Source: a virus
Length of the DNA stretch: 29,084 bases
Strand: one strand, 5' to 3'
IMG/VR virus record: IMGVR_UViG_3300044679_000082
Coordinates: 1 to 29,084 of that record
Shown here: positions 1,571-29,084 of the stretch, one piece after another
Layout: each line of letters starts with the position of its first letter
How positions within the stretch are numbered: the stretch's first letter is position 1
The notes under the pieces: model-generated
The model's database searches: none
What the model saw: the letters and a program-made list of their open reading frames with translations, nothing else
What the model was told of the DNA's origin: nothing
Program-made: the position numbers and the translations under genes

Positions 1571-2509
1571 ATGTCAGCACCAATTACTTTAGTCTCCCTA
1601 CGAGAAGTCGTAGAGCCGATTGTAAATGAGAATTTCGACGGCGTGTATGCACAGCGTAGAAATGAATGGAAATCAATCTATGTTCAACGTCCTGGATTGA
1701 AACGTTCATCTCACGTAGAAACTGTGTTGTTCGGTATGGGTAATGCACCGATTGTGGGTGACGGCGAGCCGATCCCTTATGATCAAGGTGGTACATTATG
1801 GTCTATTAATTTCCCTTATTATGTAACAGCTCTTGGATTTGCTATCACTCGGATGGCAATTGAGGATTCTGAATACATTGATTTGGCAGCAACATTTGGT
1901 CGCCACCTAGCTCAGTCGCTTTATGAAACGGAAGAGGTTCTGGCAGCTAATGTTATTAATAATGGTTTTAATAGTAATTACACCCAATTAGGGGGTGATT
2001 CTCAACCATTGTTTAGTGCAAGTCATGGTCTTTATGATGGAACCTATTCTAATATTCTAACTGGTAATCCTGCATTGTCTCAAACCTCTGCAGAACAAAT
2101 GATTATCCAATTAAGTCAATTAGTAGATTCTCGTGGTAAAAAGATCAACGTAGCTCCTCATCAGTTTGTAGTGCCTCCTCAATTAATTTTCCAAGCGGAA
2201 ATTATTTTGAAGTCATTACTACGTCCTGATACAGCTAATAATGCAATCAACCCGATTCAAAGTTTAGGTTTGTTAGAAGGCGGGATGCAAAAAGTAACGC
2301 GTTTAACTAGCCCATATGCTTGGGGTATGACAACTGACTTGAATGCTAAAGGTGACATGGGTTTAGTTAGATTTAACCGTAGAGAATTAACTCGGAAATC
2401 TCAACCAGACTTTTTGACTGATAGTTTACAATTCATTATGAGTATGCGTTATATCTTCGGTTGGGTAGATCCACGTGGAATTATCTTCTCGTCAGGAATT
2501 GGAGGCTAA
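1571..2509 (+). CDS. Major capsid protein
   Basis: 312 residues with a start at 1571 preceded by AAGGAA. The order of elements fits an HK97-fold major capsid protein of the Mu gpT/podovirus type: a helical amino end (LREVVEPIVNENFDGVY), a positively charged segment, a beta-rich E-loop-like part (GDGEPIPYDQGG), a long spine-like helix (IDLAATFGRHLAQSLYETEEVLAANVINNGF), then NVAPHQFVVPPQLIFQAEIILKS and a carboxy beta part ending in MRYIFGWVDPRGIIF. The helix followed by 'PLFSASHGL' and 'LVVPP.L' is characteristic of this group. Neighbours on both sides are head proteins. It should be the most abundant virion protein. No protease or fused scaffold is apparent. Confidence 0.85.
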   Translation: MSAPITLVSLREVVEPIVNENFDGVYAQRRNEWKSIYVQRPGLKRSSHVETVLFGMGNAPIVGDGEPIPYDQGGTLWSINFPYYVTALGFAITRMAIEDSEYIDLAATFGRHLAQSLYETEEVLAANVINNGFNSNYTQLGGDSQPLFSASHGLYDGTYSNILTGNPALSQTSAEQMIIQLSQLVDSRGKKINVAPHQFVVPPQLIFQAEIILKSLLRPDTANNAINPIQSLGLLEGGMQKVTRLTSPYAWGMTTDLNAKGDMGLVRFNRRELTRKSQPDFLTDSLQFIMSMRYIFGWVDPRGIIFSSGIGG

Positions 2510-8771: not shown

Positions 8772-9029
8772 ATGAGTTTACGAATTAATTATGCGAATTT
8801 ACCAAATTTATCTAGGGAAATAACAGTAAACGAACCCGTTGTTGTAGGCGATTCGATGACAGCAACTTTAAATATCAATGTTAATACTGGGGTACGTGTG
8901 ATTCCGCTTGAGCGAACGCGAACAATCCCCTATAATTCTACAAGTGAATTATCGCCTAAGGCTCAGTTTTATGCATATTTGTTGACTTTAAAACCATTTC
9001 AAAATGCGGTTGAGATTCCTGATAATTGA
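8772..9029 (+). CDS. Small beta-type protein of unknown function
   Basis: 85 residues. ATG at 8772 follows GGAG four bases after the fibre stop; the longer reading from 8751 overlaps that gene and lacks a ribosome site. The protein includes ITVNEPVVVGDSMTATLNIN and ends in a helical AQFYAYLLTLKPFQNAVEIP. No cysteine, signal peptide or membrane segment. It lies between the fibre and lysis genes and could be a minor virion or chaperone protein. I do not recognise it. Confidence 0.7.
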   Translation: MSLRINYANLPNLSREITVNEPVVVGDSMTATLNINVNTGVRVIPLERTRTIPYNSTSELSPKAQFYAYLLTLKPFQNAVEIPDN

Positions 9030-9040
9030 TTGGGGAGAGA

Positions 9041-9337
9041 ATGACTGAAGCCATTTTATTAAAGTCCATAGACGAGTTAAGTAGGAAAGTAGATAAATTA
9101 GAAGAGACTTTGGAAAAATTCCAAGAGAAAGTTGGGACTAATTTTGAACAACTTGACGAAAAAGTAGAAGGTCATGGACGTATTATTGCTACGGGTACAG
9201 GAGCTTTAAAAACAGTTCTTTGGGTCTCTACTACTGCAGTTACTCTCTGGAGTATTTATTCAGGGATGGTTTCAAAGTCTGAGGCAATAAGACATTCATT
9301 TGAACCACCGGCAGCGATCTATAATAAAGGAAATTAA
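9041..9337 (+). CDS. Coiled-coil plus membrane-anchor protein (XhlA-like layout)
   Basis: 98 residues, ATG at 9041 behind GGGGAGAG. Residues 5-45 form a charged heptad-like coiled coil (LLKSIDELSRKVDKLEETLE), followed by a hydrophobic segment at about 55-73 (ALKTVLWVSTTAVTLWSIY) and a short tail. This coiled coil then single membrane segment matches the layout of the XhlA haemolysin/lysis-associated family, which acts with holin and endolysin in some phages. The next gene is the holin candidate two bases away, which supports a lysis role. Assignment rests on layout and context, not on a signature motif. Confidence 0.6.
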   Translation: MTEAILLKSIDELSRKVDKLEETLEKFQEKVGTNFEQLDEKVEGHGRIIATGTGALKTVLWVSTTAVTLWSIYSGMVSKSEAIRHSFEPPAAIYNKGN

Positions 9338-9338
9338 A

Positions 9339-9644
9339 ATGTTCTTTATTCATATATTAAAAGATGGAACCTTTAAAGTAAAGTTAACATTCTATATAAA
9401 TGTAATAAAAGAATATTTACAAATGCCATCAACTTGGGAGGCTATTATTGGTCTTATTAGTATTGTTGCATCATTGTTAAAGCCAGTTGATAAAGATTTA
9501 ATCCTTTACTCTGGCGCATCTATATGGGCATTTTTAAGGTTAATTACTAGGGATACAACTAGTGTCTTTGGTCGAATAATAAAAGCAGCTGTTACAGCTC
9601 ATGATGAGTTGCAAACTAATATTCCACCTAATGATGCAGCTTAG
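9339..9644 (+). CDS. Putative holin, two membrane segments
   Basis: 101 residues, ATG at 9339 behind AAAGGAAA; a longer reading from 9300 overlaps the previous gene and has no ribosome site. Two hydrophobic segments are seen, about 33-47 (WEAIIGLISIVASLL) and 53-69 (DLILYSGASIWAFLRLI), joined by a short KPVDK loop, with a soluble tail of about 30 residues. Size, two-segment topology and position directly before spanin and endolysin fit a holin that permeabilises the inner membrane to release the lysozyme. No family signature is recognised. The stop overlaps the spanin start region. Confidence 0.55.
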   Translation: MFFIHILKDGTFKVKLTFYINVIKEYLQMPSTWEAIIGLISIVASLLKPVDKDLILYSGASIWAFLRLITRDTTSVFGRIIKAAVTAHDELQTNIPPNDAA

Positions 9645-10170
9645 AATAATTCTCTACATTTGCTCATATATGGCAATTTTTTTTATAGGATGGCATGAGC
9701 GAGCTATTAGGGATAACAGTAAGTCGATGGGTCAGACAATCGATTTGCAGGCTAAACAAATTGTACAACAAAATCAAATCATCGCTAGTCTCCAACAACA
9801 AAATCAGATAAGTAATGGGGCCGCTAAACAATATGAATCAGAAGCAGAAGCATTAAGAGTTTCTACGGCAAATTTGAGTAGGGAGTTAACAGATGTTAGT
9901 ACTCAGAATCGGATTAATCTTGATAATAAGCTTAGTAATGAGTTCTTGTGGTATGTTCAACAGTCCGAGCAATCAAGACCACGCGTGCCCTCCTTATCCA
10001 TCTCCCCCGGCGGATTTAATGCAGAAAGCGCAACCTCTGTCAGTCCCAGTGCAGAATTAATTAATATTACGGGTAACTTTGCTCAATGTAATTTGTATAT
10101 TGAGCAATTGAATAGTTTAATTGGATGGATAGAAAGTCAACAAAGTGGTAATATCACGAGCAGGAATTGA
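9631..10170 (+). CDS. Inner-membrane spanin (Rz-like)
   Basis: 179 residues from the chosen ATG at 9631 (others at 9601 and 9634; none has a clear ribosome site). I prefer 9631 because the hydrophobic anchor (RIILYICSYMAIFFIGW) then begins within a few residues of the start, as in Rz proteins. After the anchor comes a long Gln-rich coiled coil (AKQIVQQNQIIASLQQQNQI) and a carboxy segment with CNLYIEQLNSLIGWIES. The periplasmic coiled coil should meet the outer-membrane partner. It overlaps the holin stop, wholly contains the Rz1-type gene in another frame (9893-10060), and overlaps the endolysin start. Rz-type function is a confident inference from layout and the nested gene. Confidence 0.75.
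   Translation: MMQLRIILYICSYMAIFFIGWHERAIRDNSKSMGQTIDLQAKQIVQQNQIIASLQQQNQISNGAAKQYESEAEALRVSTANLSRELTDVSTQNRINLDNKLSNEFLWYVQQSEQSRPRVPSLSISPGGFNAESATSVSPSAELINITGNFAQCNLYIEQLNSLIGWIESQQSGNITSRN
9893..10060 (+). CDS. Outer-membrane lipoprotein spanin (Rz1-like), nested in Rz
   Basis: 55 residues, read in the +1 frame entirely within the Rz-like gene. ATG at 9893 is preceded by AGGGAG (9880-9885) with a seven-base spacer, an excellent ribosome site inside a coding gene. The product starts MLVLRIGLILIISLVMSSC, a lipoprotein signal with the modified cysteine at residue 19 (SSC), leaving a mature peptide of about 37 residues that is rich in proline (CPPYPSPPADLM). Proline-rich short lipoproteins nested in Rz are the hallmark of Rz1 of lambda. 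With the Rz-like protein it should bridge the periplasm and fuse the membranes at the last step of lysis. Residue -3 is Met rather than Leu, slightly off consensus. Confidence 0.85.
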   Translation: MLVLRIGLILIISLVMSSCGMFNSPSNQDHACPPYPSPPADLMQKAQPLSVPVQN

Positions 10171-18669: not shown

Positions 18670-18828
18670 CTAGGCCCATTCCCAGTGATAGCCTCCTGCG
18701 GTGATGTGATGCGTCCTTTTATGGGCAACCCCGGCGATATTGCTTCTATTAATTCCTGTAGCTTTAGCTGCTTCAGTACATGAGTTATAAATAAGATTAG
18801 TTTCAACACATTTTACTTTTTTCCTCAT
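18670..18828 (-). pseudogene. NUMOD-type DNA-binding tail of the HNH endonuclease, out of frame
   Basis: 52 codons on the minus strand from an ATG at 18828 to TAG at 18670-18672. The peptide reads VKCVETNLIYNSCTEAAKAT, then INRSNIAGVAHKR and ends in AGGYHWEWA, the pattern of a nuclease-associated modular DNA-binding (NUMOD1-like) helix-turn-helix: 'V.c.eT...y.S..eAak..gi....I...c......aGGyhW'. It begins at an ATGA overlap with the stop of the upstream HNH gene and is one base out of frame with it. Either a single A was lost in the AAAA run near 18828, splitting one endonuclease gene, or the two parts are made separately by restart at the overlap. Confidence 0.7.
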
Positions 18829-19355
18829 TTTAATTGATATTCTGGATTTTCCCATAGTTTTTTAGAGTGTTCGCTCATTTTCTCTTGATGTTCTTTCTTA
18901 GACCAAAGAGCGATGGCTCTTTTAGAGCACCCTTCTTTATGTTGAACAGTATTTGTTCCTTTTTTCATGTTCTCTCTGTATATAGGATTTGCCATTGCAT
19001 TATTACGTCCTTTCATTGAGGTTGATTTTAATTCCTTAATGTACCTTAAAATTCGAGGGCATGGAATATATCGATATTGATCACGTTCAAAACATTTTGT
19101 AATCATTGTATGTAATGCATCTATCATTTTCTTTTTATTTTCTTCTTCAGGAAGCATTTTACTCAAAAGGAGATGAGCAATAAAATGCTCTTTCACGGTC
19201 AAGATGACAAGGTTAAATTTATAATGTTTATATGTATTCGGAAGAGATTTAGGAATAATATGGTGCCGTTCAGTATATCCTTCTGGTTTTGTTCTAAAGA
19301 TAGCTTTCTCCATGAGCCGTAGATAGGTTTTTGTGTATTTGTTTTCTAAAAACAT
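18825..19355 (-). CDS. HNH homing endonuclease, nuclease portion
   Basis: 176 residues, ATG at 19355 preceded by AGAAGGAAA. The HNH core is clear: ERHHIIPKSL (H31, H32), a middle NLVILT (N48) and EHFIAHLLL (H57, H61), a metal-dependent nuclease motif that cuts DNA. The second half is basic (KGRNNAMANPIYRENMKK, then KLWENPEYQ), resembling repeats that wind DNA in free-standing phage homing endonucleases. The expected HTH end is found in the next frame. It is opposite in direction to the virion genes on both sides, as expected for a mobile free-standing homing gene. A terminator-like hairpin and a second hairpin lie just upstream of its ribosome site. Confidence 0.85.
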   Translation of the reverse strand: MFLENKYTKTYLRLMEKAIFRTKPEGYTERHHIIPKSLPNTYKHYKFNLVILTVKEHFIAHLLLSKMLPEEENKKKMIDALHTMITKCFERDQYRYIPCPRILRYIKELKSTSMKGRNNAMANPIYRENMKKGTNTVQHKEGCSKRAIALWSKKEHQEKMSEHSKKLWENPEYQLK

Positions 19356-25745: not shown

Positions 25746-26009
25746 TTATGGTTGAGGCGGTTGCGCGTAAATCCAATCCGGATCAGGAGAGGCCATTAGA
25801 GGTTGTCCCCCATTTATATCTTCAATCGGAGGTAGGGTGTACCACTTATATTGAGTGGTACTTTGGGCGCCAGCATTAATAATAGGACGATACATATAGA
25901 TATTACCATCTTCATCAATGGCCGTTGTTACCGTCATGATACCAGGGCCATTTACTTCAGTAACTGAAGTACTAACAAACGTCGGTACCGGTGGGGTAAA
26001 TGTACTCAT
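25746..26009 (-). CDS. Small Pro/Thr-rich protein of unknown function
   Basis: 87 residues. ATG at 26009 overlaps the stop of the HU-like gene (ATGA) and has AAGGA upstream. It begins MSTFTPPVPTFVSTSVTEVN, continues with DEDGNIYMYRPIINAGAQST and ends Pro-rich in DPDWIYAQPPQP. It has a beta character, with no cysteine and no membrane segment. The 'DPDWIY' end faintly recalls the 'PDP.GWV' motif of the neighbouring paralogues, but too weakly to claim kinship. Coupled translation with the HU-like gene suggests shared expression timing. Unknown function. Confidence 0.65.
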   Translation of the reverse strand: MSTFTPPVPTFVSTSVTEVNGPGIMTVTTAIDEDGNIYMYRPIINAGAQSTTQYKWYTLPPIEDINGGQPLMASPDPDWIYAQPPQP

Positions 26010-26299
26010 TTTATTCCTTCTTTATGAATATTAATAGATTTTTTAAATTTAACTGTCGGTTTAAATAATACTCGGTTATATACTATCGGATCCGATTTAC
26101 AATTAGGAATAAGCCCCGAATTAACCTGAACCTTGTATTCTTTAGGGTAAAATGTTCCAAAGCCCGGAATATATACATGCTCTCCGGCTGCTAACTCCTG
26201 TCCAATAGCAGAAAAAAGTGTTGCCACTGTATTGTACACATTTTGATTGTCCTTATACGTTTTTTTTATTATTTCATGCAGGGTTGTTAGTTTGCGCAT
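26006..26299 (-). CDS. HU/IHF-like DNA-binding protein
   Basis: 97 residues. ATG at 26299 lies inside the end of the primase-helicase gene with AGAGGAA seven bases upstream. The amino half is helical (LHEIIKKTYKDNQNVYNTVA, then LFSAIGQELAAG) and is followed by the HU hallmark HVYIPGFGTFYPKEYK, equal to 'v.l.GFGtF....r', then a beta-arm region and VLFKPTVKFKKSIN, equal to 'i.FkpgK.lk..vN'. The arm tip, usually RNP, here has LIPNCKSDP instead of a clear arginine-asparagine-proline. It should bind and bend DNA as a dimer, perhaps in replication or packaging. The 26-base overlap indicates coupled translation with the replication gene. Confidence 0.8.
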   Translation of the reverse strand: MRKLTTLHEIIKKTYKDNQNVYNTVATLFSAIGQELAAGEHVYIPGFGTFYPKEYKVQVNSGLIPNCKSDPIVYNRVLFKPTVKFKKSINIHKEGIK

Positions 26300-29084
26300 T
26301 TAATTCCTCTCTACTAAAATTAAAGTTTTCTAGGTGATATTTTGGGATGGGGATACAAAAGGCTTTAACTCTGATAGGTATAGCCGAACTGCCATCTATA
26401 CAGGTTTTTACATCTTTAGTAAGATTAGGTGTCACATCCTGATAGCCTGCCATATTCTTCAAATCCTCCATATATTTATGGTATGGTTGAGTATTCTCTT
26501 TACAATATTTTTTAAATGCTTCATGCGCCACAATAATAATGCCACTTTCTGGATAACTATCATTTACATTGTTATAGAATATTTCAATTCTACCCAATAC
26601 ATCATTCCGTGGGCAACTGGCTAAAGTATTAACGACACTGTCATAAACTCGGCGAATTTTAACGAACTTATCGGCTTTGGCTGCAATGAAATTTTGTAAT
26701 ACAACATCTGCAGTAGCAACTGCTTCGCGGAGTCTTAATCTGCTAGAATAGACTACTTCAATAATAACCCTAAATACCCGCTCCATATCAAAAGGCACAA
26801 GCCCTAGTTCTTTTGCAATGCCTGCGCCCAACCACGCTGTGCATATAATTGTTGCCCAAAAACGTTCTTCAGCTTGAAACTCAAAATCAAAATGTTTTTC
26901 AAATCTATCCTGAGCATCAGCGACCATATCCTCTAAGTCACCATTCATTTGGTATTGGGTTATTCGGCGCAGATATATTTCGCCTGCGTGGCCATAATGA
27001 GCTTGAACAAGGAGGCTAATGTGTTTACCAATCTCATCAATCCGTTGGGTGGGATTTATGTCTAATTCAAAAAGCCGGGCTTTTTGCCCTTGAGCTGATG
27101 ATTCGTGTGAGTCTAATTTATCGAAAAGTGATTTGTTGCTTGTAGACAGCAATAGTAAGTTCCATTTCTTTACAGCTCGACTATCTCCCTCTCGTGTAGC
27201 TCTGCCCTTTTCCTGCCCCATAGAAGCGTAATAGAGCAGCTCAGAGATGCGTTTACCATCCAATGCAGAGATCTCATCTATAAACGCTGGTAAGTTGTTT
27301 AAAGCGCTAAATTTATTGAACATATCATTATCAGTATCTCTAGGCATCAACATAAGTAATGTAGGGTTACCATAAACACTGTTCATAATATGGCACGCCG
27401 TCGTCTTCCCCGTACCTGTCATCTCACTGTACAAGTTAATCGCCGCTCCCCCAATAGTGGTAAAGCGTACCAATGGCGTTGCATAAGCTAATAAATAAAC
27501 AAAAGCATGTTTTTCTAATCCTACTCCATTTAAGAGAATGATAGGTTTGAGCCATTCATCAAAGCTACCCTTTTTAACAAAGGCTTTACTATAGGTGTAT
27601 GGTGCTGTTCCTTGAGGTGTAATAGAATCTTCTTTTTCTTCTTCACCTTTAATCTCACGCACTCCATAAATAAAAGATCCTTCACTTGTCCATCCCATCT
27701 GAGTCGCTACGCGTTGGATAGGTTTATTTGCTTCGTAAAGGTTAGCACATGCTATTAAATATTCTTGTACTCGTTTCATAAGCATAGGCTGAAGCATTAC
27801 TCCTGCATTGGCTAATTTGCCTTGTAGTCCTTCATTTTTCCCTGCTCCATATAATTGGCTAGCTTCCACTTCTAATGTCCTCCATGAATGCCCTCGCTTT
27901 ATCTTAAAACGTAGGAAGTTAATAGGATTTCGAATGTCTGATAATTCTGCTCTACTATCCAGATAAATAAGATAAGTAGTTACGGTAACTAATTCTCCAT
28001 TGACTAATTTTACAATATGCCCGTCTTCATTTAAATAATAAGTAGGTGGTAATTCAAAATCATTCCCTTTACTGTCTGAGACAGTATTATTGTTAGTAAT
28101 AGCTACTTGTAATGGCGTTTTTACTGCATCTTTGAAAGTACATCCCTTACATCCTTGTGAATTAATTTTTTCAAAATAAGCACAGGTTGTAGGACCTGTT
28201 GCTCTTGTTTTCCATTGTCTCATTTTTGCTAAAGTTTTGGAGCGATTATATTCCGGATAATTTGCGGAGCTCCATCGTTCAGCGGTATTCTCAGGTTGAT
28301 CACAACTTGCCGCGACTCCTAGCACTGCGTACCATAATACTTCAGCCACATTTGCATTCTTAGCGATAGCGTTAATTTGTTGGCAATTTTGTTCTACTAA
28401 TTCGCTATTTACCGCTTGATAACTGTCCCATGTAATCCCCTCTTCCATCTGTAAGAGCGCAATCGGTGGTTTCCCAGGCAGCCCTTGAGCATTGGATTGA
28501 TTGGAAGATGGTTGATTAGCTAGTTCGGGTTGATGAGCGCCTTTATAAGGGGCTAACAACTTATTAACAAAATCTATATCTACTGTATCAGTTGCCCATC
28601 TTCTTACTTCAACTTCCCGCAAGGGTATCAATTTATGGTTAAAACTTCCGACTGGACGCAATACATATGCGGCATCATTAATTTTAGTACTATCTATTAA
28701 TAAATAATTACGTTCAAAAGCTATTTTTAAATAAGTACTTGTTCTTTCCCATATTACTTTTGAACATCCCTCTTTTAACCGAATATAAACATGTAATCCG
28801 CCTCCCGAACTAACTATAGTATATTGATTTAAAGAGAACCCCAACTTAATCATTACCACATCAAGTGCATTAGCCGCATCTGCTTGGGTGGCATATGGTT
28901 TATTATCTCCACAGTCAATATCAAACGCAAGCACATGGAAAATGGCAGCATGTTTTTTTGTTCGTCTTACTACTGTCTTGCCCTTTACTTTTTCTACATT
29001 ATTTGTAAAAAGGCCAATTGCATAATAAACCTCTCGTTTTTCCTCAATATATCTTTTAAATATTTCGACAGCTTTATCTACAGT
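26274..29084 (-). CDS. AEP-type primase fused to P-loop helicase (start beyond window)
   Basis: 936 codons are visible and the frame is open to the right edge; a GTG at 28934 lies mid-domain and is not the real start. Counting from the edge, motif I is FDID (D55, D57), motif II is SGGGLH (S93-H98) and a following VLRPVGSFNHK (141-151) supplies the third catalytic element of an archaeo-eukaryotic primase domain. A Cys cluster, C301 with C312-x2-C315, is probably a zinc site. The second half has Walker A SEMTGTGKTT (553-562) and Walker B FIDE (601-604) in a DUF927-like setting, with an arginine-rich KGRATREGDSR later. It should prime and unwind phage DNA for replication, as in P4 alpha-like proteins. 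Confidence 0.85.
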   Translation of the reverse strand, partial: TVDKAVEIFKRYIEEKREVYYAIGLFTNNVEKVKGKTVVRRTKKHAAIFHVLAFDIDCGDNKPYATQADAANALDVVMIKLGFSLNQYTIVSSGGGLHVYIRLKEGCSKVIWERTSTYLKIAFERNYLLIDSTKINDAAYVLRPVGSFNHKLIPLREVEVRRWATDTVDIDFVNKLLAPYKGAHQPELANQPSSNQSNAQGLPGKPPIALLQMEEGITWDSYQAVNSELVEQNCQQINAIAKNANVAEVLWYAVLGVAASCDQPENTAERWSSANYPEYNRSKTLAKMRQWKTRATGPTTCAYFEKINSQGCKGCTFKDAVKTPLQVAITNNNTVSDSKGNDFELPPTYYLNEDGHIVKLVNGELVTVTTYLIYLDSRAELSDIRNPINFLRFKIKRGHSWRTLEVEASQLYGAGKNEGLQGKLANAGVMLQPMLMKRVQEYLIACANLYEANKPIQRVATQMGWTSEGSFIYGVREIKGEEEKEDSITPQGTAPYTYSKAFVKKGSFDEWLKPIILLNGVGLEKHAFVYLLAYATPLVRFTTIGGAAINLYSEMTGTGKTTACHIMNSVYGNPTLLMLMPRDTDNDMFNKFSALNNLPAFIDEISALDGKRISELLYYASMGQEKGRATREGDSRAVKKWNLLLLSTSNKSLFDKLDSHESSAQGQKARLFELDINPTQRIDEIGKHISLLVQAHYGHAGEIYLRRITQYQMNGDLEDMVADAQDRFEKHFDFEFQAEERFWATIICTAWLGAGIAKELGLVPFDMERVFRVIIEVVYSSRLRLREAVATADVVLQNFIAAKADKFVKIRRVYDSVVNTLASCPRNDVLGRIEIFYNNVNDSYPESGIIIVAHEAFKKYCKENTQPYHKYMEDLKNMAGYQDVTPNLTKDVKTCIDGSSAIPIRVKAFCIPIPKYHLENFNFSREELNAQTNNPA

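Follow-up and report, generated by a model that had tools for sequence, protein, structure and literature searches.

The open reading frame at positions 9893–10060 (plus strand) of the window, the 29,084-nucleotide stretch of the IMG/VR record IMGVR_UViG_3300044679_000082, encodes with a probability of about 95% the Rz1-type lipoprotein (o-spanin) of a two-component spanin. It lies wholly inside the gene of the i-spanin (Rz), in the +1 frame, and the genome would be that of a tailed phage with a Gram-negative host. The sequence features of an embedded two-component spanin were found here: a nested open reading frame, a lipobox of the permissive pattern, a predicted i-spanin membrane anchor, a cysteine, a family relation and a lysis cassette. 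A preliminary description had proposed an Rz1-type spanin within an Rz-like gene, and this is borne out by family matches, by a motif and a nested position seen in five other phages, by the lysis cassette and by a distortion of codon choice that is confined to the overlap.

The host gene (9634–10170, plus strand, with an alternative start at 9631) encodes an Rz-type i-spanin of 178 amino acids. Its product matched phrog_1403 (E 4.3e-5), phrog_13 (8.7e-4) and phrog_89 (1.4e-3), with residues 4–170 covered. One hydrophobic window of modest strength (residues 1–19, Kyte-Doolittle 1.68) is found at its N terminus and is predicted to be the membrane anchor. With its neighbours, this gene makes up a lysis cassette in the order probable holin, Rz with Rz1 inside, and lysozyme-type endolysin. 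The probable holin (9339–9644, plus strand) is a hydrophobic protein of 101 amino acids named from its position and hydrophobicity; no family match was found for it in Pfam and PHROG-type profile searches. At its start, the Rz-like reading frame overlaps the stop codon of the preceding gene; its last 26 bases are overlapped by the reading frame of the endolysin, a phage lysozyme (10145–10603, plus strand; PF00959, E 2.6e-26; phrog_7, E 1.2e-36) in which no signal sequence was seen. Just before the putative holin, 9026–9337 (plus strand) encodes a likely coiled coil with one weak hydrophobic stretch and a weak match to XhlA (E 0.1), and is possibly a holin-associated gene.

The nested reading frame runs from an ATG at 9893 to a stop codon at 10058–10060, and its 55-codon product is MLVLRIGLILIISLVMSSCGMFNSPSNQDHACPPYPSPPADLMQKAQPLSVPVQN. 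It spans 0.48–0.80 of Rz; in about 70% of known embedded cases the o-spanin starts at 0.4–0.5 of the i-spanin (PMC6139136). Because in-frame stops are located two codons (TAA) and six codons (TGA) upstream, 9893 is its first possible start. A Shine-Dalgarno sequence, AGGGAG (9880–9885, plus strand), precedes the ATG with a 7-base spacer. Both the complete reading frame in another frame of the Rz-like gene and this ribosome site seven bases before the ATG had been noted earlier and were located as described. The duplex of AGGGAG with the anti-Shine-Dalgarno sequence (-8.4 kcal/mol) ranks first among the 20 start codons found in alternative frames within Rz, and is similar to those of the main genes of the window.

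By sequence pattern, the nested protein starts with a signal peptide of 18 residues (9893–9946, plus strand) that ends in the lipobox V-M-S-S|C, and is followed by the codon of a predicted lipid-modified cysteine, Cys19 (9947–9949, plus strand; lipobox pattern). The SSC end given in the preliminary description is correct, but its signal of 19 residues is one too long, as the cysteine itself is residue 19. The signal, with Cys19 and Arg5, fits the permissive PROSITE-type lipobox pattern. The Met at lipobox position -3, which had been pointed out as unusual, breaks the strict consensus [LVI][ASTVI][GAS]C yet still lies within the permissive pattern. The +2 residue after Cys19 is Gly and not Asp, the residue that causes inner-membrane retention under the Lol sorting rule. 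The mature part includes 37 residues, 8 of them prolines, and begins with CGMFNSPSNQDHACPPYP. It is proline-rich, as had been stated; CPPYPSPPADLM, which was given as the whole of it, is only its proline-rich middle (9986–10021, plus strand), where alignment with lambda Rz1 identified the motif C-x3-P-x-P-P-x2-[LIV]-M. Each of the two partners includes a predicted periplasmic cysteine (Cys152 in Rz, Cys32 in the Rz1-type protein). At least one periplasmic cysteine, a usual rather than an absolute trait, is present in 507 of 528 known systems. A six-frame scan of the window found the nested reading frame to be the sole convincing lipoprotein-like one.

The nested protein matched phrog_3198, ‘Rz-like spanin’ (E 4.1e-6); lambda Rz1 hits this family as well, with E 1.5e-29, and the family of lambda Rz is phrog_13. 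No close relatives turned up in the collections searched, either by tblastn of Rz against phages (E up to 10) or by pattern scans, which covered viral contigs for Rz, Rz1 and the endolysin, and genome contigs for Rz. Following up weak matches brought in first Iodobacter phage PhiPLPE and the metagenomic phage MW202796, then MW202520 and an IMG/VR contig (L012). In all four, the match is an out-of-frame lipoprotein reading frame within an i-spanin-like one, and this nested position was not a selection criterion of the search that recruited them. The motif occurs with exact spacing in lambda, PhiPLPE, MW202796, MW202520 and L012, in each case nested in an i-spanin reading frame. Since the latter four were recruited with this protein or its profile, motif conservation among them is partly ascertained; lambda, which was not recruited by similarity search, serves as an independent comparison. 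Loss of the nested frame, the cysteine or the ribosome site in relatives had been named beforehand as evidence against the assignment; in the relatives that were found, all of them distant, both cysteines and the nested frame are preserved. The records of MW202796, MW202520 and PhiPLPE give no separate annotation for the o-spanin. In MW202520 both spanin genes are unannotated (1284–1697 and 1462–1659), the o-spanin being nested in the i-spanin.

In order to weigh these features against chance, the Rz gene was recoded synonymously. Alternative-frame reading frames of at least 55 amino acids that start with ATG proved to be common (20–28% of recodings), and the contig may be a fragment, so that another o-spanin could lie outside it. 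Both points are in keeping with a chance open frame in a genuine Rz gene, in a phage that uses Rz alone or an o-spanin from elsewhere in its genome. We nevertheless consider this very improbable. Nested reading frames of at least 40 amino acids that are lipoprotein-like appeared in only 83–181 of 100,000 recodings (0.08–0.18%), and C-x3-P-x-P-P-x2-[LIVM]-M in 3 of 100,000, while it is found once in the six frames of the real window. The match to phrog_3198 and a start site that aligns with that of lambda also speak against chance, as does the absence of a second convincing lipoprotein reading frame from the six frames of the window. Codon choice, compared with the phage's own usage, gives further evidence: z is -3.3 in the overlap and -4.3 in its proline stretch, and -1.0 in the rest of Rz. 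GC content is 63% in the proline stretch versus 39% in the whole contig. The abnormal codon choice is confined to the overlap and is the effect expected of a second coding frame.

If the nested gene is an o-spanin, its mode of action can be proposed by analogy with lambda. The protein would be exported, cut after Ser18, lipidated on Cys19 and sorted to the outer membrane, and may dimerise via Cys32. Its proline-rich part would bind Rz at the C-terminal end of its periplasmic domain, and the i-spanin in the inner membrane and the lipoprotein in the outer membrane would form a complex across the periplasm. Once the holin and the endolysin had acted and the peptidoglycan was degraded, the Rz-Rz1 complex would fuse the inner and outer membranes and release the progeny. 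It is from this analogy that we infer lipidation, disulfides, complex formation and lysis. That this is a former o-spanin gene, now non-functional, for example if the Met at -3, off the strict consensus, blocks lipidation, is less probable still, as the signal fits the permissive pattern, the protein retains both cysteines along with the prolines aligned to lambda P33, P35 and P36, and deviant lipoboxes of o-spanins are on record (AWAC, LNGC and FVGC, of which AWAC was experimentally verified; PMC6139136).

Several other genes of the window were noted in addition. The major capsid protein (1571–2509, plus strand) is related (45%) to those of the 62-kb Caulobacter phages RW, RLK, KcrB and GB2A. 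None of the four capsid relatives examined (L002–L005) matched phrog_3198, and therefore the capsid gene and the lysis genes do not move together here, which suggests that the latter are exchanged as modules; the record of L002 has a lysozyme. On the minus strand, 18825–19355 includes an HNH-like ‘ERHHIIPKSL’ and the overlapping reading frame 18670–18855 a NUMOD-like ‘SCTEAAKATGINRSNI’ (by eye). Together (18670–19355) they look like one homing endonuclease gene that was split by a frame change and inserted among structural genes. Also on the minus strand, the product of 26006–26299 is small and, by eye, resembles HU/IHF; that of 26274–28934, with 886 amino acids, matches DUF927 (E 2.1e-28) and is probably a helicase or primase.

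In database searches with the nested protein, the top match was the embedded spanin of PhiPLPE, with 44% identity over 36 amino acids and an E-value of 2 when taken alone (CPVIPPPPADVMQK against CPPYPSPPADLMQK). The PhiPLPE o-spanin is nested in an annotated Rz-like spanin that adjoins a lysozyme, and the spanin was listed as an embedded singleton (PMC6139136). PhiPLPE differs in that its i-spanin belongs to phrog_2466 and phrog_1327 and its endolysin is located upstream. In the metagenomic phages MW202796 and MW202520, both from Manatee Spring, the o-spanins include CPKFPSPPEELM and CPPFPSPPNVLM, respectively; they lack annotation and lie within i-spanin reading frames. These i-spanins are shorter (136–137 amino acids) and 20–27% identical to the Rz described here; MW202796 also has a capsid relative in common with the window.

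Lambda Rz/Rz1 is the prototype of the embedded two-component spanin, and there, as here, Rz1 is read in the +1 frame and begins about halfway through Rz. Both Rz1 proteins have a short proline-rich mature part. The identity to lambda is only 27% over 86 columns for Rz and 36% over 45 for Rz1 (BLASTP E 0.008 and 0.005, respectively, as single comparisons), the lipobox lacks the Met at -3 in lambda, and the Rz-Rz1 pair lies before the endolysin in the window and after it in lambda. The Rz1 start regions agree in 14 of 18 bases with the same 7-base spacing (AGGGAGTTAACAGATGTT in the window, AAGGAGTTAGCTGATGCT in lambda). This block also codes for Rz residues, RELTDV in the window and KELADA in lambda, which fall into one column block with KEINDA of MW202796 when the Rz proteins are aligned with MAFFT. 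It is possible, though less likely than not, that the dual-coded block ([KR]E[LI]xD in Rz, encoding the Rz1 ribosome site and start) is common to both phages by descent. With a protein identity of only about 27%, such descent would make the embedded architecture ancient and maintained, not re-evolved, across very divergent phages.

Within the mature part, Cys32 aligns with lambda Rz1 Cys29, the cysteine of the homotypic disulfide. The mutation-sensitive lambda prolines P33, P35 and P36 are kept, and P34 is replaced by Ser both here and in the two metagenomic phages; the pentaproline of lambda corresponds to YPSPP in the window. P34 is the sole pentaproline residue of lambda Rz1 that tolerates substitution (PMC5295617). 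At the position of P32 the window has Tyr, whereas PhiPLPE, MW202796, MW202520 and L012 have Phe or Ile, which are likewise hydrophobic. The lambda alignment points to C-x3-P-x-P-P-x2-[LIV]-M as a core motif, with serine in place of lambda's third, substitution-tolerant proline. Embedded two-component spanins were found in 182 of 677 phages surveyed in 2018, and 196 of 528 o-spanins in that survey were unannotated (PMC6139136). As nested spanin genes are routinely overlooked, a divergent example is of use in annotating them. The spanin pair described here is a real and ordinary, if very divergent, example of the known lambda-type embedded class.
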